A stretch of 64,000 bases of DNA from Actinomycetota bacterium. GTDB taxonomy: Bacteria > Actinomycetota > Thermoleophilia > Solirubrobacterales > Solirubrobacteraceae. The first letter of the stretch is position 1. Each line of letters opens with the position of its first letter. Of the stretch, positions 5,483-35,295 are shown one piece after another. The notes under the pieces were generated by a model, which was given only the letters and a program-made list of their open reading frames with translations, did not search any database and was not told the DNA's origin. The translations under genes were made by a program, and so were the position numbers. Location: NCBI GenBank assembly GCA_018268595.1, contig JAFDWH010000021.1, positions 248,001 to 312,000 of the forward strand, in the 5' to 3' direction.

Positions 5483-6450
5483 GTCACTGTCACCTGTTGC
5501 GTCGTCGTCGTTTGCACTCCGGTCTGGTCCGTGACGGTCAGCGCCACGGTGTAGGTGCCGGCGCCCGGTTGCCAGCTCACCAGGCCGTTCGACGCGATCG
5601 CCAGCGAGCTCGCCGAGGGGCATGGTGAGGAGGTGCAGGCCCAGGCATAGGAGAGCTGCTCGTTGTCGGGGCTGTACGACTGCCCCGCGTTCAGGATCAC
5701 ACCGCCGGACCCCGTCGCGGTATAGGTGAACTGCGCGACCGGGGCGTGCTGCTTGTTGCGCAGGTACGCGGCGCTCCGGATCTGGGTCGTCGCTCCGCTC
5801 AGCGTCGGCGTCGGGTTGACCCGCAGGTTGACCTGGATCGTCGAGATCTGGGGCAGGTCGGTCGCTGCGACGCCGTCGGCGTCGAGCCCGTTGTTGAAGC
5901 TGAACGCCGGATAGCTGGTCGTCTGCCGGTAGCGGTTCATGACCGCTTCGGCGAGGACGGTGTACACCGGCTGTCCGGCCGCCGGCGTGAACGTCAGGTC
6001 GGGGCACGCGATCGTCTGCGACGGATCGGACGTCCACGGGTTGGCGGCGGGCGTCGCGGTCGTCCACGTCTGCGTCTGGGCGATCAGCCGCTCCAGGCTG
6101 GCGCTCCCGCTGCTCGAGTCCTGCGGGACGCAGTACCGCACGCGCTGGATGCCGCTCACGTTCGCGCCGCTCGGCGTCCCGATCGTCTGGAACACGACGT
6201 CGTTCGGCGTCGCCCGCTCCAGCAGCTTCGGCGTCGTGAGCGGGCTCGAGACGTTGCGCAGGTCGCGCACGATACGGTCGACCGCGAGCCGCGCCCGGTC
6301 CTGCGCGTCGAGTCGCTTGCCGGCGGCGCTGGACTGGTGCAGGTAGGAGTCGAGGATGCTCAGCGTGGCGCAGAACACGACCAGCGACATCGTCATCGCG
6401 ACGAGCAGCTCGACCAACGTGAAGCCCTCTTGCCGGCGCAGCGGGCTCAT
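5479..6450 (-). CDS. PilW-like minor pilin with C-terminal PKD-like domain
   Basis: 323-residue prepilin. The leader ends QEG, followed by FTLVELLVAMTMSLVVFCATL, so it is a substrate of the prepilin peptidase; Glu is at +5. A pilin-like globular region follows. The last 85 residues or so have a PKD/Ig-type pattern (AGQSYSPDNEQLSYAW near 250, then GTYTVALTVTDQTG), as in adhesion modules. ATGA overlaps join it to pilV upstream and pilX downstream. It is probably a pilus-tip or priming subunit with a binding role. Confidence 0.85.
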   Translation of the reverse strand: MSPLRRQEGFTLVELLVAMTMSLVVFCATLSILDSYLHQSSAAGKRLDAQDRARLAVDRIVRDLRNVSSPLTTPKLLERATPNDVVFQTIGTPSGANVSGIQRVRYCVPQDSSSGSASLERLIAQTQTWTTATPAANPWTSDPSQTIACPDLTFTPAAGQPVYTVLAEAVMNRYRQTTSYPAFSFNNGLDADGVAATDLPQISTIQVNLRVNPTPTLSGATTQIRSAAYLRNKQHAPVAQFTYTATGSGGVILNAGQSYSPDNEQLSYAWACTSSPCPSASSLAIASNGLVSWQPGAGTYTVALTVTDQTGVQTTTTQQVTVT

Positions 6451-7991
6451 TGGGTCAGCACCGGGGAGCACGGCGACTCGTTGAGGTGGGTGTCGACGGC
6501 GGTGACGCAGTAGCTCTGCTGCACGCCGCCCGGATCGGGGGAGCCGTCGGTGTAGCTCGTGGCGGCGGGGGAGTTGCCGACGAGCTGGTAGCGGTCGCCG
6601 GGGATCTGCACCGCGCGGTTCGACGGCCAGCGGTAGACGCGCCACGCCTGGATCGAGTTCCAGCTGTCCGACGCGGCGGGCGAGGGCGCGTCCCAGCTCA
6701 GCGCGAGCTGCCCGTTGGCGAGCGTTCCCGAGAGCGTCGTCGGAGCGTACGGCTGATGGTCGCACAGGTTGGCGTCGACTTGCGGGGACTGGGCGGTGCT
6801 CTCCCGCGGCGCTCTCGTCGTCGGGTCGCTGTCGACGCCGACGACCCAGTAGTAGTCGGTCGTCGTGTAGCTCTGGGCGGAGCTCGTGCAGGGGTTGGGC
6901 CGGGCCGACGGATCCGGCGGCGCGAAGGCCGCCTCGGGCGCGTCCGCGCAGCTCGTGCCGGTGACGTTTCCGCACGTGGCGACGAGCTGCGACGCGTTGC
7001 TGCCGTACTTGCGATAGACGCGGTAGTAGAGGACGTCCTGGTCGACGCTCGGGATCCACTGGAGCTCGGCGCCGCCGGTGAGGTCGTTCCAGCCGGCGCT
7101 GAACGACGTCGGCGCGATCACCTGGTGGCGGTTCAGGTTGACGACGACGGTCGAGCGCGTTCCGCTGTTGCCGTCCGAGTCGTAGGCCACCGCGGCGATC
7201 GTGTAGGTGCCGTCCGCGGTCGGGAAGTTCCAGGTGAACGACGACGAGGTGCCGGACGGCGCATACGGATCCGTCGAAGCGGCCGGGATCTGCTCGCTCG
7301 GCGGCACGTTGCCGTTGACGAGCCACTGGATGCGGGTGGCGACCGCGGTCGTCGTGACGTTGAACGTCAGCGAGGAGCCGCTGGTGGCGGTGACGCTCGG
7401 GCCGGGGCAGGTGGCGGAGGTGCTGAGACAGGTGACCGCCGGCCCGTTCACCGGCCGGCCGTAGACGAGGATCGTCTGCTGAACCGTCGGCGTGCTGCGA
7501 CTGCTCGGCGTGACCGTCACCGAGACGCGCGTGTAGTCCGCCGGGTTCGAGTCCTGCGTGCCGCTCGACGCGACGTCGGGGCACCAGGTCCCGCCGCTCG
7601 CGGGCGCCGAGCTGTGGCTGCCGTACCCGTCGCTCGGGTTGTCGAGCTCGCAGACGGCGAAGGAGACGTTGAAGCTCGTCGGACTGCCGGACGACGACAC
7701 CGCCCGGCTGACCACGAGGTTCGAGCCCGAGACCGTGGCCTGCGGCACCGTCGACTGGAGCGCGGAGGCGATCGCGGCCGACGTCAGCTGCGTGGAGGAG
7801 AGGCCGCGCGCGTCCTCCAGCACCTCGCGCGCCAGGCTCGTCTCCGCCTGTCGCAGGCGGGTCGTCGAGATCGCGTGGTCGGCCGTGACGAGCATCTGGA
7901 GCAGGCCGCCCAGCCCGACGACGAGCACCACCGCTGCGACGAGGACCTCGACGATCGTGAAGCCGTCCTGCCCGGAGACGCGCGCGCGCAT
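6447..7991 (-). CDS. PilV-like minor pilin with Ig/FN3-like domains
   Basis: 514-residue prepilin, first gene of the minor-pilin operon. The leader ends QDG, followed by FTIVEVLVAAVVLVVGLGGLL, a class III signal with Glu at +5. After the pilin part come an Ig-like stretch (about residues 180-280, ending GTYTIAAVAYDSDG) and two fibronectin-III-like repeats to the end (ELQWIPSVDQDVLYYRVYRK, then LALSWDAPS and AWRVYRW). Normal PilV proteins are under 200 aa, so this is a much enlarged, probably adhesive, tip subunit. It is divergent from pilD across 81 bases. Confidence 0.85.
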   Translation of the reverse strand: MRARVSGQDGFTIVEVLVAAVVLVVGLGGLLQMLVTADHAISTTRLRQAETSLAREVLEDARGLSSTQLTSAAIASALQSTVPQATVSGSNLVVSRAVSSSGSPTSFNVSFAVCELDNPSDGYGSHSSAPASGGTWCPDVASSGTQDSNPADYTRVSVTVTPSSRSTPTVQQTILVYGRPVNGPAVTCLSTSATCPGPSVTATSGSSLTFNVTTTAVATRIQWLVNGNVPPSEQIPAASTDPYAPSGTSSSFTWNFPTADGTYTIAAVAYDSDGNSGTRSTVVVNLNRHQVIAPTSFSAGWNDLTGGAELQWIPSVDQDVLYYRVYRKYGSNASQLVATCGNVTGTSCADAPEAAFAPPDPSARPNPCTSSAQSYTTTDYYWVVGVDSDPTTRAPRESTAQSPQVDANLCDHQPYAPTTLSGTLANGQLALSWDAPSPAASDSWNSIQAWRVYRWPSNRAVQIPGDRYQLVGNSPAATSYTDGSPDPGGVQQSYCVTAVDTHLNESPCSPVLTQ

Positions 7992-8072
7992 GACGGCATC
8001 ATCGGCAGCAACGGCCGAAACCCGTAGCGACCGCCGGCAGGTCTCGGCGCACTGCTGGTCGAATCTGGGCTC

Positions 8073-8825
8073 GTGCTGCTCGTCCTGATCGCTGCCGCCG
8101 GCGGACTGCTCGTCGGCTCGTTCCTCAACGTCGTCGCGTGGCGGCTGCCGCGCGGCGAGTCGCTCGTCGCGCCCGGCTCCCGTTGTCCCGCCTGCGAGCA
8201 CCCCGTGCGCCCGTACGACAACGTGCCCGTGCTGTCGTGGCTCGCGTTGCGCGGGCGCTGCCGCGACTGCCGCGCGCCGATCTCCGCGCGCTACCCGCTC
8301 GTCGAGGCGCTCACGGCGGCGCTCGCGGCGGCGGTGGTGGCGACGAACGACGGCGCCCATGACGTGCTGCTCGGGCTCGCGCTCGTCGCGCTGCTCGTGC
8401 CGATCGCGCTGATCGACCTCGACCACCGCATCGTCCCCAACCGCCTGACCGCCCTGGGCGCGGTGGCGGCGCTCGCGATCGGCGCCGCGACCGACCTGCA
8501 CGGCGTGCCGCAGCAGCTGATCGCGGGCGCGGCGGCGGGCGGCTTCCTGCTGCTGGCGGCGCTCGCGCGGCCGGGCGGGATGGGCATGGGCGACGTCAAG
8601 CTGGCCGGGATGCTCGGGCTGTTCCTCGGCCGCGAGGTCGCGGTCGCGCTGCTGGTGGCGCTCGTCGCCGGGACGCTCGTCGGCGTCGTCGTGATGGCGC
8701 GGCGGGGGGTGGGGGAAGGGCGCAGGACGGCGATCCCGTTCGGCCCGTTCCTCGCGCTCGGCGGCGCGGTCGCGCTGCTCGCCGGCCCGGCGATCGTCGA
8801 CTGGTACCTGTCGACGTTCGCCTGA
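8073..8825 (+). CDS. pilD: Type IV prepilin peptidase / N-methyltransferase
   Basis: 250-residue A24-family aspartic protease of the inner membrane that cleaves prepilin leaders and methylates the new N-terminus. Two CxxC pairs (C38/C41 and C63/C66) form the cytoplasmic zinc site. The catalytic aspartates are D115 in DLDHR and D174 in GMGDVKL. About seven or eight membrane segments are visible. The GTG start puts the protein directly at its first membrane segment, and GAATCT six bases upstream resembles the -10 boxes seen elsewhere in the window. It is the likely processing enzyme for the pilins at 3310, 5479 and 6447. Confidence 0.93.
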   Translation: MLLVLIAAAGGLLVGSFLNVVAWRLPRGESLVAPGSRCPACEHPVRPYDNVPVLSWLALRGRCRDCRAPISARYPLVEALTAALAAAVVATNDGAHDVLLGLALVALLVPIALIDLDHRIVPNRLTALGAVAALAIGAATDLHGVPQQLIAGAAAGGFLLLAALARPGGMGMGDVKLAGMLGLFLGREVAVALLVALVAGTLVGVVVMARRGVGEGRRTAIPFGPFLALGGAVALLAGPAIVDWYLSTFA

Positions 8826-8844
8826 GCCGGCGAGGCGCGGCGCG

Positions 8845-10437
8845 CTACCGGCGGCCGTGCCGGTGCGGCAGCAGCAGCTCGAACGTGTGGTTCTCGCCGT
8901 GCTGCTGGGTGAAGAACGCCCGCACGCCGTGGAGCTTGGCGGGGTCCTCGGCGCCGAGCAGGCCGCCGATCGAGTCGTCGCCGTCGGAGACGAGCAGGCC
9001 GGTCGGCTCGTTGTCCTCGCTCGTCGGCCCGCTCGCGCCGCTCGCCTCGGGGTCACGCCCGAGCGCCACGAGCCGCTGCGCATCGGCGTTGATCGCCGCC
9101 TTCGGCTGCGTGATGTCGAACGACCAGATCGAGTCGAGCGTGTTGAGCTGGTCGTGCAGCGTGTCGCCGCGGTCCTCGGCCGTCAGCAGCGTGCGCTTGT
9201 CGAGGAACGTGACGTTGTCGAACGCGGCGTGCTGCGCGTCGCCCAGCTCGAGCGTGCGGATCGTGCCGCTGTCGGCGCCCGCGTGCGGCATGTCGAGGCG
9301 CAGGATCGCGCCCCACGCGCCGCGCTCGGCCGCGCCCGGGTACTCGCCGGCCGTCTTGTCGGTGTCGCCGGTCTCGACGAACACGAACGAGCGGAAGTCG
9401 CTCGCCGGCACGAACTTGCCGTTCTCGGGGCGCTTGAGCGGCGTCGCGCCGGCGCTCTTGGCGAGCGCGTTGGCGTCGAACGAGGCGGTCCCGTCAGTCG
9501 CCGTGTCGTGGACCGTGACCCAGCGCGCCTGCAGCGTCTCGCCGCTGTGCAGGCGGCGGATCGGCTCGCCGAGCGCGTCGTCGCGCGCGGCCGTCGCGCT
9601 GACGGCTCTGTCGTGGAACGCGATCGGCGTGCCGTCGACCGACACCTGCAGCGCCTGCAGCTTGCCGGCGGACAGGTTGCGTGGGTCGCTCGGGACGAAG
9701 CGGTAGACGAACGAGTTCGGCTGCTTGACCTTCGTGGTCGCGCCGTTGTCGGTGACGCCGGAGCCGCCGCTGTCCTCGACGAGGTAGACGTCGCCGCGCT
9801 TGTCGACCGCGGCGCCCTCGTAGCCCGCACGGCCGATCGAGCCGTTCTGGAAGGCGAGCGGCGGCGGGGTCGTGCCGCTCCAGCGCAGCTTCGTCGTGAC
9901 GACGGCGCCGCTGGAGCCGGCCTCGCTCGTGAACAGCACGTCGCCGCTGAACGGGTCGTACGCGTCGCCGTCCATGCTCGAGAGGCCGGTCGTGCCGTCC
10001 GGCGCGCCCGGCGAGAGCAGCGTGATGCGGTGGCTCGGCTCGGTCACGTCGAGGTTGATGCGCGTGAGGTACGCCTTGCCGGCGCCGTTCTCGTGGCCCT
10101 GGATCAGGAAGTGGCTGCCGTAGTCATAGCCGGCCGTCGGACCGCCGACGTGGCGCGCTCGCAGGTAGAGGTTCTCGTCCGGCTCGGTGCGCGTGCGCGC
10201 GAGCGGGTCCGCGTTGTCGTCGAGGTAGCCGTACAGCTTCGTGATCCCGCTCGGGTTCTCGAGCGGGTCGACGCCCTCGGCGACGACGCGCGTGCCGAAG
10301 CCGGAGGCGAAGAGGCTCGGCGTGCTGCCGACCGTCGGGTTGGTGCCGGGCACGCCGGACGCGATCTGACCGATCGCGACGCCCGTGACCGCGAGGCCGG
10401 CGACCGCTGCTGCGGCGCCGGCGGCGAGCTTGCGCAA
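8845..10437 (-). CDS. Secreted PhoX/DUF839-type protein
   Basis: 530-residue exported protein with an N-terminal Sec-like signal (RKLAAGAAAAVAGLAVTGVA). Family-like motifs include MDGDAYDP (about 155), a VEDSGG...FVYRF segment (about 220-240) and FVETGDTD (about 350). These are typical of the calcium-dependent PhoX/DUF839 group, some of which are alkaline phosphatases. No twin-arginine signal is seen, unlike classical PhoX. The TTG start is chosen because GGAGG lies 6 bases upstream. Phosphatase activity is uncertain. It sits inside the pilus locus without an obvious link. Confidence 0.7.
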   Translation of the reverse strand: MRKLAAGAAAAVAGLAVTGVAIGQIASGVPGTNPTVGSTPSLFASGFGTRVVAEGVDPLENPSGITKLYGYLDDNADPLARTRTEPDENLYLRARHVGGPTAGYDYGSHFLIQGHENGAGKAYLTRINLDVTEPSHRITLLSPGAPDGTTGLSSMDGDAYDPFSGDVLFTSEAGSSGAVVTTKLRWSGTTPPPLAFQNGSIGRAGYEGAAVDKRGDVYLVEDSGGSGVTDNGATTKVKQPNSFVYRFVPSDPRNLSAGKLQALQVSVDGTPIAFHDRAVSATAARDDALGEPIRRLHSGETLQARWVTVHDTATDGTASFDANALAKSAGATPLKRPENGKFVPASDFRSFVFVETGDTDKTAGEYPGAAERGAWGAILRLDMPHAGADSGTIRTLELGDAQHAAFDNVTFLDKRTLLTAEDRGDTLHDQLNTLDSIWSFDITQPKAAINADAQRLVALGRDPEASGASGPTSEDNEPTGLLVSDGDDSIGGLLGAEDPAKLHGVRAFFTQQHGENHTFELLLPHRHGRR

Positions 10438-25910: not shown

Positions 25911-27868
25911 GCGACACCCCCGCCCGCATCCTCCCCGGCATCGACCGCCCGCAGGACCTGCACGGCCTCTCCGACGAGGAGCTGACGCAGCTCGCGCAGG
26001 AGGTGCGCGAGCACATCATCGACACGGTCGGGGAGATCGGCGGCCACTTCGGCGCGAACCTCGGCACGTGCGAGCTGGCGGTCGCGCTGCACTCGCTGCT
26101 CGACTCGCCGCGCGACAAGATCCTGTGGGACGTCGGCCACCAGGCCTACCCGCACAAGGTCCTCACCGGCCGCCGCGACCGCCTCGCGACGATCCGCAAA
26201 TATCAGGGGCTCACGCCGTTCTGCTGCGTCGAGGAGTCCGAGCACGACGTGATGGGCGCCGGCCACGCGTCCACCTCGATCGGCTACGCGGTCGGGCTCA
26301 AGGAGGCGATGCGCCACGGCAACGGTCCCGACGGCAAGGTCGTCGCGGTGATCGGCGACGGCGCGATGACCGGCGGCGTCGCGTTCGAGGCGGTCCACCA
26401 GGCGGGCGGGCTCGGCACGCCGATCGTCGTCGTGCTGAACGACAACGGCATGTCGATCTCACCGAACGTCGGGGCGCTGTCGCGCTACTTCAACCGCATC
26501 CGCCTGAACCCGAAGTGGTGGCACGCGCGCGAGGGCGTCGAGGGCGGCCTGACGAAGCTGCCGGGCGGCATCGGCGCGCGCTTCGAGCGGCTCGGCCCGC
26601 AGCTGAAGGAGTCGATCAAGGCGTTCTGGGCGCCGGGCCTCTTCTGGGAGGAGCTCGACTGGGCCTACATGGGCGTGGTCGACGGCCACGACGTGCCGAA
26701 CCTGCGCGAGGCGCTGCGCGAGGCGCTCGCCGCCGACCGGCCCGTCGTCGTGCACATCGCGACCGTGAAGGGGAAGGGCTTCGCCCCGGCCGAGGAGGGC
26801 GGCCTGGAGGGGATGGAGAAGTGGCACGCCGCGAAGCCCAAGTCGATCGCGAACGGCGCGCCCGCGCCGGCCGTCAAGCTCGCTCCCGGCGAAGCGCCCG
26901 CCCCGCCGAAGCCGCCGCAGTACACGAAGGTCTTCGGCGACGCGCTCGTGCGCGAGTGCGAGCGCGACGAGCGGATCGTCGGCATCACCGCCGCGATGAA
27001 CACCGGCACCGGGCTCGACATCCTGCAGAAGGCGCTGCCGGACCGCTACTTCGACGTCGGCATCGCCGAGCAGCAGGCACTGCTGTTCGCATGCGGCCTC
27101 GCGCTGCAGGGCGCCAAGCCGGTCGCCGCGATCTACTCGACCTTCCTGCAGCGCGCGTTCGACCAGATCGTCCACGACGTCTGCCTGCAGAGACTGAACG
27201 TCGTGCTGGCGATGGACCGCGCCGGGCTCGTCGGCGACGACGGGCCGACGCACCACGGCGCGTTCGACATCGCCTACCTGCGCCCGCTGCCGCACATCGT
27301 GCTGATGGCCCCGCGCGACGAGGCGATGCTCGTGCACATGCTGCACACCGCGCTGACGCACGACGGCCCGATCGCGCTGCGTTACCCGCGCGGCGAGGCG
27401 GTCGGCGTCGCGCTGCCGGACACGCCGGTCGCGCTGCCGATCGGCAGCGGGGAGATCCTCCGCACGGGCGCCGACGGCAAGGTCGCGCTGCTCGGCTACG
27501 GCTCCGGCGTCGGCAAGGCGCTGGAGGCGGCCGAGCTGCTGCGTGAGCACGGGATCGACGCGACCGTCGCCGACGCGCGCTTCGCCAAGCCGCTCGACGC
27601 CGGCCTCGTCGCCCAGCTGATGGCCGAGCACGAGCTGCTCGTGACGGTCGAGGAGGGCGTCCTGGCCGGCGGCTTCGGCTCGGCCGTGTGGGAGACGCTG
27701 TCCGACGCCGGCCTGCCGTCGCGCATCCTGCGCGTCGGCCTGCCCGACCGCTATGTCGCGCACGGCGCGCCGGCGCTGCTGCACGAGGAGGTCGGCTTCA
27801 CCGGCCCGGCGATCGCGCAGCGGATCCTCGCCGCCGTCGGCGCGCCCGACTCCGTCGGCGCCGCCTAG
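25907..27868 (+). CDS. dxs: 1-deoxy-D-xylulose-5-phosphate synthase
   Basis: 653 aa, thiamine-diphosphate enzyme, first step of the MEP pathway. The ThDP motif is GDGAMTGGVAFEA...NDNGMSIS (about 149-185). DVGHQAYPHK (about 75-84) and the catalytic Glu region VGIAEQQALLFACG (about 384-397) are present, with the C-terminal transketolase domain. A low-complexity Pro/Ala insert at about 320-340 links the domains. Its last 4 bases overlap the LuxR gene stop on the other strand. Confidence 0.97.
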   Translation: MSDTPARILPGIDRPQDLHGLSDEELTQLAQEVREHIIDTVGEIGGHFGANLGTCELAVALHSLLDSPRDKILWDVGHQAYPHKVLTGRRDRLATIRKYQGLTPFCCVEESEHDVMGAGHASTSIGYAVGLKEAMRHGNGPDGKVVAVIGDGAMTGGVAFEAVHQAGGLGTPIVVVLNDNGMSISPNVGALSRYFNRIRLNPKWWHAREGVEGGLTKLPGGIGARFERLGPQLKESIKAFWAPGLFWEELDWAYMGVVDGHDVPNLREALREALAADRPVVVHIATVKGKGFAPAEEGGLEGMEKWHAAKPKSIANGAPAPAVKLAPGEAPAPPKPPQYTKVFGDALVRECERDERIVGITAAMNTGTGLDILQKALPDRYFDVGIAEQQALLFACGLALQGAKPVAAIYSTFLQRAFDQIVHDVCLQRLNVVLAMDRAGLVGDDGPTHHGAFDIAYLRPLPHIVLMAPRDEAMLVHMLHTALTHDGPIALRYPRGEAVGVALPDTPVALPIGSGEILRTGADGKVALLGYGSGVGKALEAAELLREHGIDATVADARFAKPLDAGLVAQLMAEHELLVTVEEGVLAGGFGSAVWETLSDAGLPSRILRVGLPDRYVAHGAPALLHEEVGFTGPAIAQRILAAVGAPDSVGAA

Positions 27869-30003
27869 AACGACTCGACCAGCCCGATCTCGCGCGCGCG
27901 GGCGACCGCCTCCGAGCGCGAGCGGGCGTCGAGCTTGCGGTAGACCGCCTGCGCCTGCGTCTTGACCGTGTTGGCGGAGACGCCGAGCCGTGCGGCGATC
28001 TCGCGCAGCGAGAAGTGGCTCGGCAGCAGTCGCAGCACGCGCAGCTCCGCGAGCGTGAGCTGCGCCGAGCCGTCGGCGGCGCTTGCCGCGAACGCGTCGG
28101 CGCGCGCCCACGCGTCCTCGATCCAGCCGCGCAGCACGAGCGCGTCCGGCAGCCTGCGCCGCGCGCGCGACATCAGCGCCAGCTCGGCGCGCGCACCGGC
28201 GGCGTCGCTCAGCCGCAGCAGCGTGCGCGCGAGCGCGTAGCGCAGCTCCGCCTCGTGCCACGGCGGCAGCGCCGCGCCGGCCGGCAGCAGGCGGCGCGCC
28301 TGCGCGAGCGCCGCGCGCGCGTCGCCGAGCGCGCCGCGGCGCGCGTGGGCGAAGGCGGCGAGCGCGGGCACGAGCGCGAACAACGGCTCGGCCCCGACGC
28401 TGCCGCGCGACCCGCAGGCGAGCGCGCGCCGCACGAGCGGCTCGGCGCGCCGCGGCTCGTCGCGGTCGAGCGCGAGCAGCGCGAGCTGGCCGAGGCACAG
28501 CGCCTCCAGCAGCGGCGCGGAGGCGGCGTTCCAGGCGCCGTCCTCCAACCGCTCGCGCGCCGCCTCGAAGCCGCCGAGCAGCAGCTCGCCGGTGCCGGCC
28601 AGCAGCAGCGCGAGCGCGCGCCACGTGCGTTGGCGCGGGTCGGTCGCGAGCGCGGCGAGCGCGTCGGAGCGCATGCGCGCGGCGCCCGTGCGCGCGAGCG
28701 CGGCGTCGAGCAGCGCGACCGACGCGGGCGCCGGGCAGGCCGGCCCGGCGGGCAGCTCGTGGAAGCGCCGGCGAGCCGCCGCGGTGAGCCGCTCGGCCTC
28801 GTCGGCGCGCCCGCGCGCGAGCCGTCGCAGCGCGCCCGCGAGCGCCAGCGCGGGCAGCTCGGCGACCGCCTCCGCGCCCGCCGCCGCGAGCCACGCGTCG
28901 AGCCGCCCGGAGGCCGCGCCGAGCGCGTGCGCCGGCAGCGCGGGCCACAGCAGCACGGCTGCGCGCGCCGTCTCGCCGGCCGCGAGCGCGTGCTCGACGG
29001 CGCGCGCGAGATCCCCGCGGCTCTCGCACCACGCAGACGCGCGCCGGTGCGCCTCCGCCTCCCACGCCGGATCGGCCTGGCGCAGCTCGGCGAGCAGCGC
29101 GTCGGCGACGAGCGGGTGCAGGCGGAAGCGCCGCTCGGCGCGGTCGAGCGCGGTCAGCGGCATGTTCGCGTGCGCCAGCTCGCGCAGCAGCAGCCCACTG
29201 CCGGTGCGTCCCAGCACGGCGTCGCACAGCTCGCCCGCGAGCGGCGCGAGCGGCGCGCCGCGCAGCAGCAGCTCGCGCGCCGCCGGGTCGAGGCCGCCCA
29301 GCAGCTGCTCGCGCACGTAGCCGGCGAGCAGCCGGTCCGCGCCCGTGACCGGCGCACGCGCGTCCTCGCCATCGCGCTCGGCGAGCGCGCGCGCCGCCAG
29401 CACGAGCGCGGCCGGCCAGCCCTCCGCGGCGGCGATCGCGCGCCCTGCCTGCGCGTCGGACAGGTCCGGGGCGACGCCGCGCAGCAGTGCGAACGCCTCG
29501 TCGCGGTCGAGCGCGAGCTGCGGCGCGTCCAGCTCGAGCAGGCGGCGCTCGGCGCGCAGGCGCGCGAGCGGCAGCGGTGGGTCGCAGCGCGCCGCGAGCG
29601 CGAGCTGCGAGCGCTCGGCGAGCAGCCCGAGCAGCGCCGCCGCGTCGGCGCTCTGCAGCAGGTGCGCGTCGTCGAGCACGAGCAGCAGCGGCGGCTCGAC
29701 GTCCGCCAGCGCGCGGTCGATCGCCGCGGCCGCGTCCGCCGGCGCGAGCGCACTGCCCCCGCCCTCGCGCGCAAGCTCGCCGAGCGCCACCCACGCGCAC
29801 GGCCGCGGGTCGGCGGCGGCCCACTGCGTCAGCAGCGTCGTCTTGCCGTAGCCGGCCGGTGCGCGCAGCAGCACGATCGCGCCGTCGGCGGCCGCGAGCG
29901 CTGCCAGCAGCCGCTCCCGCCGCACGCCGCGCCGGCCTGCCCGCGGAGAGCGGGGCGGCGCCGGCCGCGGCGCGCGGGGGCGGGGGAGGGCGGTCGCGCT
30001 CAT
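27865..30003 (-). CDS. Large ATP-binding LuxR (LAL/MalT-type) regulator
   Basis: 712 aa. The N-terminal STAND-type NTPase has Walker A APAGYGKTTLL (about 48-58) and Walker B LLLVLDDAHLL (about 104-114), followed by a winged-helix part, a long helical repeat sensor region (about 330-620), and a C-terminal LuxR helix-turn-helix (LTLAELRVLRLL, SLREIAARLGVSANTVKTQAQAVYRKL, about 645-690). Such proteins oligomerise on sensing a ligand. It is divergent from the DUF1269 gene across 193 bases that hold the repeated control element (30091-30136), so it is the natural candidate to bind that element. The inducer is unknown. Confidence 0.92.
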   Translation of the reverse strand: MSATALPRPRAPRPAPPRSPRAGRRGVRRERLLAALAAADGAIVLLRAPAGYGKTTLLTQWAAADPRPCAWVALGELAREGGGSALAPADAAAAIDRALADVEPPLLLVLDDAHLLQSADAAALLGLLAERSQLALAARCDPPLPLARLRAERRLLELDAPQLALDRDEAFALLRGVAPDLSDAQAGRAIAAAEGWPAALVLAARALAERDGEDARAPVTGADRLLAGYVREQLLGGLDPAARELLLRGAPLAPLAGELCDAVLGRTGSGLLLRELAHANMPLTALDRAERRFRLHPLVADALLAELRQADPAWEAEAHRRASAWCESRGDLARAVEHALAAGETARAAVLLWPALPAHALGAASGRLDAWLAAAGAEAVAELPALALAGALRRLARGRADEAERLTAAARRRFHELPAGPACPAPASVALLDAALARTGAARMRSDALAALATDPRQRTWRALALLLAGTGELLLGGFEAARERLEDGAWNAASAPLLEALCLGQLALLALDRDEPRRAEPLVRRALACGSRGSVGAEPLFALVPALAAFAHARRGALGDARAALAQARRLLPAGAALPPWHEAELRYALARTLLRLSDAAGARAELALMSRARRRLPDALVLRGWIEDAWARADAFAASAADGSAQLTLAELRVLRLLPSHFSLREIAARLGVSANTVKTQAQAVYRKLDARSRSEAVARAREIGLVESF

Positions 30004-30705: not shown

Positions 30706-31083
30706 ATGGAGTGGCTCGCCCTCGCCGTGTGGGCGCTCGCGGCCGCGTTCGCGCTGCCCGCCGGCGCCGGCGCGTTCGCTGCGCCGGCGCTCGGGCTCGT
30801 CCCGCCGCTCGGGCTCGCCGGGCTCGCGCTGTCGGTGATCTTCGCGGCCGGCGGCGCGCACAGCGCCGGGCTGATGTGGGTCGCGTTCGGCCTCGGCCTC
30901 GCCGGCGCCGTCGTGACCGGCGCCGGCGCGGCGCAGCTGATCGCGGAGGAGCAGCCGGGCAGCCCGGAGATCGGCCGCGCCGAGGAGCACGGCTCGGTCT
31001 TCGCCGGGATCGCGTGGCCGCTGCTCGCGGTCGCCGCGGGCGTGTCGGTGCTGGCGGCGCTCGCCGCCGACGGCACGCTCTAG
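30706..31083 (+). CDS. Small membrane protein of unknown function
   Basis: 125 aa with four hydrophobic segments and an acidic loop (EEQPGSPEIGRAEEHGS, about 85-101). No family recognised. It follows the DUF1269 gene by 11 bases, so it is the same transcript. Its TAG stop is part of the CTAG target site of the insertion element, so the protein is unbroken. Confidence 0.65.
   Translation: MEWLALAVWALAAAFALPAGAGAFAAPALGLVPPLGLAGLALSVIFAAGGAHSAGLMWVAFGLGLAGAVVTGAGAAQLIAEEQPGSPEIGRAEEHGSVFAGIAWPLLAVAAGVSVLAALAADGTL
31080..31083. repeat. Target-site duplication, left copy (CTAG)
   Basis: CTAG directly before the left terminal repeat, identical to 33880-33883. It includes the stop of the gene at 30706. 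Confidence 0.7.
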
Positions 31084-31099
31084 GAGGGTTTGGCGAAAC
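31084..31099 (+). repeat. Left terminal inverted repeat
   Basis: GAGGGTTTGGCGAAAC; pairs with the right end at 33864-33879 with one mismatch. Confidence 0.85.
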
Positions 31100-31152
31100 T
31101 CCGTACGCCCGGTGGGGCGGGCGGTTTCGAGGCTGAGAAATCGGGCCGGACC

Positions 31153-31166
31153 CCACGAATTCGTGG
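31153..31166. promoter_or_regulatory. Perfect palindrome in the left end of the element
   Basis: CCACGAATTCGTGG, 14 bases, 118 bases before the transposase start. It could be a binding site for transposase or for the element's XRE protein. Confidence 0.4.
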
Positions 31167-31230
31167 CGGTTACCCCGCCCGATTCTGTCCGGTCCAACGG
31201 GTAGATTTCCCTGTAGATAAGGGAAAAAGT

Positions 31231-31261
31231 GACCCCCGCGCTGCGCAAACAGCCGGGGGTC
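31231..31261 (+). other. Hairpin just before the transposase start
   Basis: 8-bp stem GACCCCCG/CGGGGGTC around 15 bases, ending 22 bases before the TTG start. A hairpin here could block translation from transcripts reading in from outside, as known for several IS families. Confidence 0.4.
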
Positions 31262-31283
31262 TGGACCTTGGAGATAGCGCTCC

Positions 31284-32444
31284 TTGGCCATCGCGAGCCT
31301 ACCACCGAGATCGGCTGCGGCTGACCTCGGGAGGCTGCTGGACTCTCCGGAGATTCAGCGCCTCATCACCGACCTTCAAGAGACGCGCTGGACAGGCCGG
31401 CCGGGCTACCCGGTGCGCGTCATGGTCGGCATGGCGCTCGCCAAGTCGCTCTACGCGATCTCGACATGGACGCGCACGGTTCGGCTCGTCGCCGAGCATC
31501 ACGCGCTCCAGGCTGCGCTTGGCTGCGAGGACGGTGTTCCTTCGGAGTGGGCGTGTTACCGGTTCTCCAAGAAGCTGCGGGAGAACGGGGCGATGATCGA
31601 CGCCTGCATCGCAGCGGTCATCGTCGAGCTGCACCGTCGCCTGCCGGACTACGGCAGAGACGTTGCCATCGATGCGTCGGACATGCCGGCGTACGCGAAC
31701 GGGCAACGGCTGCTCTCGAAGAACGGGCCGGAGCGCGAGCGCTACTCGGACCCCGATGCGTCGTGGGGCCACCGGTCGGCAGTCTCGACGCGGCGTGGCG
31801 GCGGCTTCTACGGCTACCGCCTGCACGCCGCAGTCTGCACGGCGACGGGCCTCCCGGTCGCGTGGGAGGTCGCGACCGGGAGAGCCCACGAGTCGCTGTT
31901 CATCGCGCCACTGATCGACGCGGCGAAGGCGCGTGGGTTCGACGTAGCGACGCTCGCGGCCGACAAGGCCTACGACAACAACCGCGTCTACGCGGAGTGC
32001 GTCGAGCGCGACTGCCAGCCGATCATCCCGCTCCGCAGAACGACCGCCGTCAGACGCGGTGACCACCTGCCGCCGAGCTGCGAACACGGCCAATGGCGCT
32101 TCGCCGGCTCGGACTACAGACGCGGTGCCGCGAAGTGGCGCTGCCCGACCGGCGAGTGCGCCCCGGCTTCAACGTGGGTCAGAGCCGACCGCCTGCATCC
32201 GCTCATCCCGCACCGGACGCTTCGCTGGCGCGCGCTCTACCGCCGCCGCGCGGCTATCGAGCGCGAGTTCGGACGGCTCAAGCACGAATGGGCACTGCTG
32301 CCGTTGCGCGTGCGCGGCATCGACCGCGTGACGCTGCACACCGACCTGACCATCCTTGCGAAGCTCGCGACGACACTTGAGCGGGCACGGGCCGCGACCG
32401 CGGCCCGCATTGCTGCTCGTCAGCCGGTCGGGGGTGCGGCGTGA
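31284..32444 (+). CDS. DDE transposase (DDE_Tnp_1, IS4/IS5 superfamily)
   Basis: 386 aa. The catalytic triad is D130 (VAIDASDMPAY), D227 (AADKAYDNN) and E326. The YREK signature is complete (Y319, R322, E326, K333). A helical N-terminal DNA-binding part precedes (about 1-110). TTG start is chosen because GGAG lies 10 bases upstream and no better in-frame start covers the N-terminus. The intact reading frame with all catalytic residues suggests the element is recent or active. Its end overlaps the minus-strand cargo gene by 25 bases. Confidence 0.93.
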   Translation: MAIASLPPRSAAADLGRLLDSPEIQRLITDLQETRWTGRPGYPVRVMVGMALAKSLYAISTWTRTVRLVAEHHALQAALGCEDGVPSEWACYRFSKKLRENGAMIDACIAAVIVELHRRLPDYGRDVAIDASDMPAYANGQRLLSKNGPERERYSDPDASWGHRSAVSTRRGGGFYGYRLHAAVCTATGLPVAWEVATGRAHESLFIAPLIDAAKARGFDVATLAADKAYDNNRVYAECVERDCQPIIPLRRTTAVRRGDHLPPSCEHGQWRFAGSDYRRGAAKWRCPTGECAPASTWVRADRLHPLIPHRTLRWRALYRRRAAIEREFGRLKHEWALLPLRVRGIDRVTLHTDLTILAKLATTLERARAATAARIAARQPVGGAA

Positions 32445-33397
32445 CCTTCGACCAGTCTCCAACCGGAGGTCGATTTTCTCCGGCTCGTGAGCGGTCTGCT
32501 CTCTACCCAGCTTCCGCGTGGAAGGCCCCACAGTCTTCTCGCCTGTGGCGTCTCGAAGACGGGCTCGAAGCTCTGGATCACCGTCTCGACCCAGCCGGCT
32601 ATCTGAGCCAGTGCATAGCGCACCGGAAGTCCGTTGCCGAGGCATACCTGGCAGAGGATCTCAATCTGCACGTCCACTTTCGGGTTCGGCCCGGTGACCT
32701 CGACGGGGACGGTGAGGATCTCTGCGCCTACGTCCAGGCGTTGCCCGAGGTTCTCCAGGTGGATCGTCGGGTCGCCGCGCCGCGTGCAGTCGTGGAACAC
32801 GATGCGAGGCGCGATCTCGTATGGAGCGACCGCTACGAGCTGGATGATGCGGTGCTTGTCCTCGTTCCAGAGGTGCTGAAGGTCAGCGGCCGGATGGCGC
32901 CCACGTCGTCGCAGGGTCGCGGCGCTCGGGTTGTCCTTCCGTCGGTAGCACGGCTGCGCCCGGTAAAGCATTGCCCGGTGTTTCTGCATCACACCGTGCA
33001 ACATGAGCGTTTGGACCTCGGGTCTATGCCAGTTCTCCCGGGTGAGGCTCCCGGGGAACGCGGTTCGCTTTCTCGGGACTCTTCCGCCGAGGCCGAGGAA
33101 GGACAACTCGAACACGAGGTGATCGAGGGTCGACCGGAGGTTGTGGACGACGTCTCCGATGATCGTGGAAATTTCGAGCGGCGGCTCGTTGACGGTTTCC
33201 ACGACCGTCTGGAACGTGTCCTTCGCATGCGGCTTCTGCTCAGTGCGAAAGGTTGCCGGGTGGAACTCCCCGGACCCGAGGTCGCGGATCTCCTTCTTGA
33301 GCCGTTCAAAGTGCTCGTGAGCCCGCCAGATTTTTGCTTCGCAACCGGCGAGCGGGTGGTCGCGCGGGAGTCGCGGGCCTGACAACTCCTCATCCAT
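32420..33397 (-). CDS. Uncharacterised cargo protein with HNLRSTLDHL and DKHR motifs
   Basis: 325-residue soluble protein without signal peptide or membrane helices. It holds GDVVHNLRSTLDHLVFEL (about 82-99) and WNEDKHRIIQLV (about 174-185). This pair of motifs is known to me from widely scattered uncharacterised bacterial proteins; the charged R/H/K motifs resemble a nuclease-like site but that is a guess. It is cargo of the insertion element, on the opposite strand to the transposase and 82 bases downstream of the XRE gene. Codon use is less GC-biased than in the host genes. Confidence 0.75.
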   Translation of the reverse strand: MDEELSGPRLPRDHPLAGCEAKIWRAHEHFERLKKEIRDLGSGEFHPATFRTEQKPHAKDTFQTVVETVNEPPLEISTIIGDVVHNLRSTLDHLVFELSFLGLGGRVPRKRTAFPGSLTRENWHRPEVQTLMLHGVMQKHRAMLYRAQPCYRRKDNPSAATLRRRGRHPAADLQHLWNEDKHRIIQLVAVAPYEIAPRIVFHDCTRRGDPTIHLENLGQRLDVGAEILTVPVEVTGPNPKVDVQIEILCQVCLGNGLPVRYALAQIAGWVETVIQSFEPVFETPQARRLWGLPRGSWVESRPLTSRRKSTSGWRLVEGHAAPPTG

Positions 33398-33479
33398 GAC
33401 CGCGAACCCTTCTACAAACCGGCGTGCCGCAACGCCAGTCAGCCGGGCCGACGAACAGCCGGCCCGGCCCGGTGTCGGC

Positions 33480-33746
33480 TCAGTCGTCTTCGCCGATGTG
33501 GCGCTCGTAGATCTCCATCAGCTCCGAGAGCGGCAGGCGCAGGCCGTCTGCGAGCTGCATAAGCGTCTTGAAGGTGGGGTTGATCGTGCCGCGCTCGATG
33601 GCGCCCACGTAGTTGCGGTGCAGATCGGCGCGGAAGCCGAGCGCCTCCTGAGAGAGACCGCGACGGGCGCGCGCCTCACGAACGGCAGCGCCCAGCGCGT
33701 GCAGATCGGGCGCGTCAGCGCGCGCCCGGTTACCCTGGCCATGCAT
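33480..33746 (-). CDS. XRE-family transcriptional regulator
   Basis: 88 aa with one helix-turn-helix: VREARARRGLSQEALGFRADLHRNYVGAIERGTINPTFKTLMQLADGL spans about 22-69 in host-like XRE form. No second domain. It is cargo of the insertion element and lies just upstream of the unknown gene at 32420 on the same strand. It may control that gene and the transposase, or act as the antitoxin-like partner of its neighbour. Confidence 0.88.
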   Translation of the reverse strand: MHGQGNRARADAPDLHALGAAVREARARRGLSQEALGFRADLHRNYVGAIERGTINPTFKTLMQLADGLRLPLSELMEIYERHIGEDD

Positions 33747-33863
33747 CGGAAGGTCCGTCCTTTCGGTGCCAGGCCCCGGGGTGTTAGCGCACCGCCGGGG
33801 CCAACCTATGAGAGGGGCGAACCTAGATGACCGATGGACGACGGCTCAACCGTTTCGCCAATC

Positions 33864-33879
33864 GTTCCGCCAAACCCTC
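33864..33879 (-). repeat. Right terminal inverted repeat
   Basis: Reads GAGGGTTTGGCGGAAC on the minus strand, 15 of 16 identical to the left end. A second partial copy (TTGGCGAAAC) lies inward at about 33852-33861. Confidence 0.85.
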
Positions 33880-33883
33880 CTAG
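33880..33883. repeat. Target-site duplication, right copy (CTAG)
   Basis: CTAG directly after the right terminal repeat. It supplies the TAG stop of the minus-strand gene that ends at 33880. Confidence 0.7.
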
Positions 33884-35295
33884 GAGTGCAGCAGCGCGGC
33901 CTTCTGGGCGGCCAGCTCGTCGTCCGTCAGGAGGCCGCGCTCGTGCAGCGCCGCGAGGCGCTCGAGCAGCGCGATCCGCTCGGCCGAAGCCGGCCCGTCG
34001 CCGGGCGGCGCCGCGGCGGCGCCGTTGCCCGCGGCGCCGTCGGTCCGTGCGGGCGCGGGCGGCGTGCGGCGCCGGTGCAGCGCGTCGCCGAGCGCTCCGC
34101 GGACGCGGTCGTAGCGCGCGTGCCAGGCGAGCTGGGCGTCGGCGACCGTCGCGTTCGGGAACTCGCGCCCGGTCTGCCGCCGCAGCGCGGCGACGCCGAG
34201 CGCGACGAGCCCGATCATCACCAGCACCGGCACGACCATCCGCGTCGCCGGGATCGGCCCCCACGCGATCACGAGCAGCACCAGCACGCCCGCGACCGCG
34301 TAGGAGACGAGCGGGTCCTCGCGCAGCCACGGCGCGGCCCCGCGGCGCAGCGCGACGGCCGGGCGCGTCGCGCCGGCCAGCCACGCGGCTCCGATCACGG
34401 GGATCGCGCCGAGGATCAACGCCCACGAGATGTCCTTCAGCATGCTCGTGCCGATCGACCACGCGGCATGCGCCGCCGGCACGACCGCCTCGGTGCGCAC
34501 GAGGCTGTCGACGACGCGGTTGCCGGCGACCTCGCGCGCGACGAGCACGACGACGCCGGCGAGCACGAGGCACCAGCCGACGGCGCGCAGCGTCTCGCGC
34601 CGGCGCCCGCGCGCGGTCGCGACCGCGCCGGCGAGCAGCAGGAAGGCGGCCAGCGGCAGCACGATCGCGAGCCCGCGCAGCGCGCTCGCGACGTTCTGCA
34701 CGGCCGACACCTGGTTGCCGGACACGATCGCGACTCTGCCCGCTCCCGGCGGGATCTTGGCGGCCAGTCTGCCGGACAGGCCGAGCCGCTGGACGACGTC
34801 GAGCAGCAGCGCGCGCAGGTCCAGGTAGGCGGTGTTGCCGTGGAGCGTGACGTACTTCGAGTTGCCCTCCGCGATCGCGATGAAGCGCTCGGCCGCCAGC
34901 TTGTTGGCGTTGCGCCACGCCTGCTGCACGCGCGGGCGGCCGAGCGCGGTGTCGGTCACGCTCTGGGCGGCGTTGCGCAGGCCGCCGGCGGCCGGCCCGG
35001 CGAGCGGCTTCAGGCGCGCCGGCAGCGCGGACGCGAGCTCGCCGCTGACGTCGACGTTCGCGTAGACCGTGTCGACGAGGAAGCCGGAGACCTGCGTGCG
35101 GATCGCCTGGTTCTCCAGCAGGGCCGTGCTCGTGTTCGCCCAGTTGTCGGCGTTCAGCAGCTGGCGGTTGGCCCACACGGCGACGATCGAGACGATCGCC
35201 ACGACGGTCCCCAGCACGAGCAGCGTGCGGACGGCGTAGCGCCGCCCTCGCGGCAGGCGCTGCGAGGGCGGCGGGGGGACGGCGGCGGGCGCCAT
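33880..35295 (-). CDS. Membrane protein with C-terminal SHOCT domain
   Basis: 471 aa. A first membrane helix (about 24-43), a long extracytoplasmic region (about 45-210), about five further helices (210-370), and a C-terminal SHOCT motif (IALLERLAALHERGLLTDDELAAQKAALL, last 30 residues, given here only as its pattern of LxxLxxxGxLTxxEFxxxKxxLL). Function unknown. It is downstream of the DUF7144 gene on the same strand (31 bases). A second SHOCT protein is encoded divergently at 36341. Its stop codon lies in the right CTAG of the insertion. Confidence 0.8.
   Translation of the reverse strand: MAPAAVPPPPSQRLPRGRRYAVRTLLVLGTVVAIVSIVAVWANRQLLNADNWANTSTALLENQAIRTQVSGFLVDTVYANVDVSGELASALPARLKPLAGPAAGGLRNAAQSVTDTALGRPRVQQAWRNANKLAAERFIAIAEGNSKYVTLHGNTAYLDLRALLLDVVQRLGLSGRLAAKIPPGAGRVAIVSGNQVSAVQNVASALRGLAIVLPLAAFLLLAGAVATARGRRRETLRAVGWCLVLAGVVVLVAREVAGNRVVDSLVRTEAVVPAAHAAWSIGTSMLKDISWALILGAIPVIGAAWLAGATRPAVALRRGAAPWLREDPLVSYAVAGVLVLLVIAWGPIPATRMVVPVLVMIGLVALGVAALRRQTGREFPNATVADAQLAWHARYDRVRGALGDALHRRRTPPAPARTDGAAGNGAAAAPPGDGPASAERIALLERLAALHERGLLTDDELAAQKAALLHS

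Follow-up and report, generated by a model that had tools for sequence, protein, structure and literature searches.

A small passenger-carrying transposon with an IS1182/IS5-like transposase lies at a duplicated CTAG between two convergent genes whose stop codons are preserved

We describe a small transposon with passenger genes that separates two convergent genes in a stretch of 64,000 nucleotides from a genome of the family Solirubrobacteraceae (the whole stretch is referred to as the window, and positions are those of the window unless a locus is named). Very probably, the element is moved by a DDE transposase of IS1182/IS5-like type which makes a 4-bp staggered cut in the palindromic tetramer CTAG, and its position on stop codons follows from the way CTAG is distributed in the host genome. 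Specifically, the transposase itself would recognise CTAG and cut it with a 4-bp stagger, which would duplicate the tetramer. Because CTAG is kept out of coding regions and most remaining copies lie in spacers and stop codons, an element that seeks CTAG would often hit stops, i.e., landing on stops would presumably be a by-product of the target sequence. Where two convergent genes share a CTAG, the duplication would supply one copy to each gene and both proteins would stay unchanged.

The element is 2796 bp long (31084–33879) and is located between two copies of CTAG (31080–31083 on the plus strand and 33880–33883 on the minus strand). Its left terminal inverted repeat, GAGGGTTTGGCGAAAC (31084–31099, plus strand), can be read directly and fits the weight matrix of related ends; the right one, GTTCCGCCAAACCCTC (33864–33879, minus strand; GAGGGTTTGGCGGAAC on the opposite strand), is identical to the left repeat at 15 of the 16 positions. 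Direct reading confirms in this respect the original prediction, made from the sequence of the window, of 16-bp terminal repeats with 15 identical positions and CTAG on both sides. The weight matrix of ends also shows that the right end contains the repeat core twice, the additional copy lying further inside (33852–33867, minus strand). Such a doubled core is seen at one end of the elements, usually the right one (33852–33879 here) and the left one in L029 and L127, and is a possible basis for unequal transposase binding. The element is present as a single copy in the 3.57-Mb genome.

The left CTAG contains the TAG stop of a host gene on the plus strand (30706–31083), which is recognised by its coding score and a homologue and encodes a membrane-like protein of 125 aa, and the right CTAG is the stop of a minus-strand host gene (33880–35295), which is recognised by homologue alignments and encodes a protein of 471 aa with a weak SHOCT C-terminus. 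Reading of the open reading frames confirms the two CTAGs as the stops of flanking convergent genes. Over the last 80 codons of each gene, the assigned frame scores as coding when compared with the five alternatives (+39.6 bits for the left gene and +21.7 bits for the right one), alignments of the right protein with homologues from the family reach residues 468–471 of 471, and the left protein has one homologue at 38% identity. Because of these coding scores and homologue alignments we regard both genes as real and their ends as native. When the flanks are rejoined in silico with one CTAG, both genes end in that same CTAG, just as had been predicted for removal of the element and one CTAG. The shared CTAG has been duplicated with one copy for each gene and consequently neither protein is changed; the earlier claim to this effect is supported, each gene keeping its stop and its native end. 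A second convergent pair sharing one CTAG stop is found in the window at 27865–27868, 3.2 kb from the insertion, and is unoccupied.

The same ends occur beside CTAG in more than 20 relatives. A scan of the genome collection yielded 29 loci, mostly in Thermoleophilia and other Actinomycetota, and a weight matrix derived from right ends, together with a class-wide genome search, brought the number of complete elements flanked by matching 4-bp duplications to 24, mostly in Thermoleophilia, compared to two complete elements recovered by a generic inverted-repeat search. The search for complete elements required that the flanking 4-mers be equal and left their letters free. The duplication is CTAG in 21 of the 24 complete elements, with CTAT, CTAC and TTAG found once each, and nearly all remaining high-scoring single ends abut CTAG. 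The matched repeats bear out the predicted insertion into a palindromic CTAG with duplication of the site, and the consensus bears out specific target choice. The check that had been proposed for this purpose, i.e., listing the duplications of other copies, thus turned out mostly in favour of CTAG, with three copies that differ but are each matched on both sides. Judging from these sequences, CTAG targeting is real, and it is of a known kind, as for IS5. The complete elements are 1573–4782 bp long, 23 of them exceeding 2.3 kb. The transposase is present in 21 of 399 genomes of the class and 4 of 396 genomes of the phylum, and searches at the order and phylum levels added few copies. No relative was found in phages, and the plasmids contributed one copy, which abuts CTAG at one end and is located on an Iamia plasmid close to a DNA methyltransferase gene. 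At L116 (about 5843–9261) two copies of the family's transposase are found side by side on one contig.

CTAG is found 7 times in the 64-kb window compared to 67 times expected from dinucleotide shuffles, in line with its earlier description as a rare tetramer, and 78 times in 400 kb of the element's own genome compared to 340 expected, an approximately 4-fold depletion. The original prediction had suggested in addition that the element may favour convergent stops. We counted insertion sites with at least 300 bp of host DNA on both sides (n = 18), took the background CTAGs from the element's own genome (461 kb) and from relatives (145 kb), and called genes with a home-made codon model seeded on the transposase genes, which assigns 68–76% of the sequence to coding regions. 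Ten of the 18 insertions are at a stop (3 of them at a stop shared by convergent genes), 6 are inside called genes and 2 are between genes; the 144 unoccupied CTAGs comprise 57 at a stop (40%; 5 shared convergent), 37 within genes (26%) and 50 between genes. The proportions at stops, 10/18 versus 57/144, do not differ significantly (Fisher p = 0.21), and the same applies when sites are counted per flank with single ends and miniature elements included (19/64 versus 62/288, p = 0.19). With CTAG depleted about 4-fold and the surviving copies concentrated at stops and between genes, the coincidence with stops probably arises mostly from CTAG itself, and with 6 of the 18 insertions inside called genes the element does not avoid genes. 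Comparison with relatives shows the element directed to CTAG itself, with no detectable bias towards gene ends.

Two other explanations of the position at stops have to be weighed against these counts. Insertion could be random among CTAGs and be followed by selection that removes gene-breaking insertions, leaving stops and spacers over-represented. We consider this unlikely: the slight, non-significant excess at stops speaks for it, but insertions within genes are not rarer than in the background (6/18 versus 37/144) and no filtering is visible at n = 18. It is more improbable still that the element seeks gene ends by reading features beyond CTAG (convergent transcription or terminator structure, for example) and prefers convergent stops for that reason. 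Shared convergent stops are indeed more frequent among the insertions (3/18 versus 5/144, Fisher p = 0.046), and a weak extended site preference exists for C at position −3 and G at position +3 of CTAG (60% C). The three shared stops are those of the window, L109 and L110; inspection shows the last to be clearly real, with one CTAG ending both a cupin gene and a gene for a DinB-type polymerase, and the plus-strand gene at L109 is weakly supported. However, the p-value varies with the coding threshold (0.01–0.18), and the window copy must be excluded because it is this copy that prompted the test, which leaves 2/17 and p = 0.16. Together with the absence of a significant excess at stops overall or per flank and with the sites inside called genes, these values leave a preference for stops, convergent or otherwise, not established, although the nominal enrichment of shared convergent stops may reflect a weak additional one, and we retain the reading in which CTAG alone is the target.

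That the two CTAGs and the stops coincide by chance, with no insertion unit between them, is hardly credible, since the same ends and matched duplications recur in 24 elements from various hosts and surroundings and the CTAG count of the window falls about 10-fold short of expectation, even though searches with the right gene, the left gene and the cupin gene of L110 found no uninterrupted exact empty site. The closest approach is a genome of the same genus (G338), where the right gene has kept its neighbourhood and a LuxR-like gene (27865–30003 in the window) follows directly, without the element and without either of the two small plus-strand genes, the left gene included. Homologues of the left gene are weak and rare in the family. 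G338 presents this locus free of the element, but not the exact junction before insertion. The counter-evidence named in the original prediction, flanking genes that were never adjacent in related genomes, did not emerge from the comparison with G338, in which the right gene adjoins the LuxR-like gene and both the element and the left gene are absent.

The transposase gene (31284–32444, plus strand) encodes a protein of 386 aa that matches Pfam DDE_Tnp_1 (5.7e-23) as well as DUF772. The best NCBIfam model is IS1182 (NF033551; 4e-42), with 144.7 bits below the equivalog cut-off of 270, followed by IS5_4 with 69.4 bits versus a cut-off of 140; every IS5 cut-off of NCBIfam is missed. IS1182 is the best NCBIfam match for all 8 transposases tested (best E-value among relatives 1.1e-46). 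The DDE-type signature Y-x2-R-x3-E-x6-K is conserved at residues 319–333 (Y319, R322, E326 and K333). Because the NF033551 cut-off is missed we do not claim membership in IS1182; the element is likely an outlying, passenger-carrying relative of it.

Two passenger genes follow on the minus strand. One (33480–33746) encodes an XRE/Cro-type HTH regulator of 88 aa (Pfam HTH_3, 9e-14). The other (32420–33397) encodes a protein of 325 aa with no known domain, whose family is also cargo in 3 other complete elements (L029, L031 and L107); no sequence relative with known structure was found for it, and its predicted fold has a pLDDT of 51, too low to interpret. Its assignment as a HEPN toxin, considered on the basis of an RxxxxH-like stretch, was dropped because the H is not conserved. 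The set of passengers differs in nearly every one of the 24 complete elements, the 59 called cargo ORFs (some small calls may be spurious) falling into 51 clusters. Passengers include a SocA/Panacea protein (L019), DUF3800 proteins (L036 and L111), an N6/N4 methylase with an Mrr domain (L037, with a similar one in L113), PIN proteins (L110 and L129) and an SspD-like protein (L114), and by their sequences many resemble toxin-antitoxin, restriction or defence functions. Judged only by the look of its sequence, a transposase ORF nested in L127 is IS66-like.

Elements of 160 bp with ends TAGGG[A/C]TTGGCGRAAC are likewise present in the genome. Miniature elements were located at L141 (5906–6066, CTAG on both sides), L140 (5865–6025), L142 (6168–6357), L137 (4473–4632) and, in a genome of another family, L119 (7477–7636, flanked by CTAG and CTAA). 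They are 160–190 bp long with related ends and an interior conserved across genera, and several are found at contig ends; the CTAGs that flank some copies look decayed. They may have been moved by a relative of the element's transposase.

The transposase gene is preceded by a leader RNA of two hairpins (31231–31295, plus strand). The same two hairpins fold in nearly all of 30 copies of the 65 nt around the transposase start. In hairpin 1, 95.3% of cells are paired, 7 of the 12 pairs have changes on both sides, and the covariation amounts to 0.345, whereas shuffles give 0.086 and slid controls do not exceed 0.080. In hairpin 2 the paired bases include the Shine-Dalgarno-like GGAG, or the co-varying CGAG/CTCG, GGG/CCC or GAGG/CCTC, and its stem includes the UG of the start codon, from which we infer that the leader would hold transposase translation down. 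Within the coding region, about 17 nt in, a motif containing GTA looks conserved. A second two-hairpin leader precedes the HTH gene (33736–33802, minus strand; covariance model, E = 2.8e-6). A search with a covariance model of hairpin 1 and flanking sequence, whose E-values are rough, found the leader in 70 of 379 genomes of the class; elsewhere it precedes integrase-like ORFs (L200 and L207) and small HTH-like ORFs, and L186–L199 are also among the loci. Rfam 15 gave no match to the leader in 31080–33883, the two sub-threshold chance matches being located away from it.

Upstream of the leader is a promoter-like motif, TGTCCGGT-N8-TAGATT (31186–31207, plus strand), with fixed spacing across copies. 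In 21 of 30 copies, compared to 0.5 in shuffles, the pattern GTC-N4-N8-TAnnnT occurs at essentially one spacing and precedes the leader by 41–48 nt. The RecA-independent (PafBC-type) DNA-damage promoter of actinobacteria is tTGTCRgtg-8 nt-TannnT (PMC5656591). The spacing of the two is equal, but only GTC and TAnnnT are matched, the commonest left half in the element family being CGTCCGAY. Tentatively, and with some doubt, we suggest that the leader, together with the PafBC-like promoter spacing in the transposase copies, could be an undescribed regulatory RNA module that transposases, integrases and small HTH regulators, mobile genes of Thermoleophilia that are otherwise unrelated, have in common. 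It would prevent their translation by keeping the ribosome site and the start codon buried, and a signal common to them, DNA damage for instance, would open it.

The proposed mechanism would offer a transposon a simple route to being harmless, by way of a target palindrome that, in GC-rich genomes, is retained chiefly where genes end and in the spacers, and it requires nothing except CTAG targeting, which is already known from IS5. The larger value lies in a family that combines a single transposase with varying cargo and in a covarying leader that precedes several kinds of mobile genes. The leader, apparently unlisted, is the newest part of these findings.

Several known systems share features with the element. 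MITEPsy1 is a short element that duplicates CTAG or YTAA (PMC3189936); it is similar to the 160-bp family in its related ends and CTAG duplication and differs in sequence and host. IS5 duplicates mostly CTAG (15 of 24 listed) and less often CTAA and TTAG (PMC5493358), and likewise has a DDE_Tnp_1 transposase. The YTAR consensus of the IS5 group accommodates the 21 CTAG duplications and the one TTAG, with CTAT and CTAC outside it. The element differs from IS5 in that it adds passenger genes and a structured leader, and its transposase scores below the IS5 cut-offs. Within IS1182, ISPse1 has 16-bp ends and a 4-bp duplication (PMC3281130), as does the element approximately, and ISPsy36 also has a 4-bp palindromic target (PMC8027508), which is GGCC and not CTAG. 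The IS1182 model has 488 positions compared to the 386 aa of the element's transposase, and ISPse1 and ISPsy36 measure 1653 and 1666 bp, whereas 23 of the 24 copies of the element family are about 2.4–4.8 kb long and carry passenger genes.
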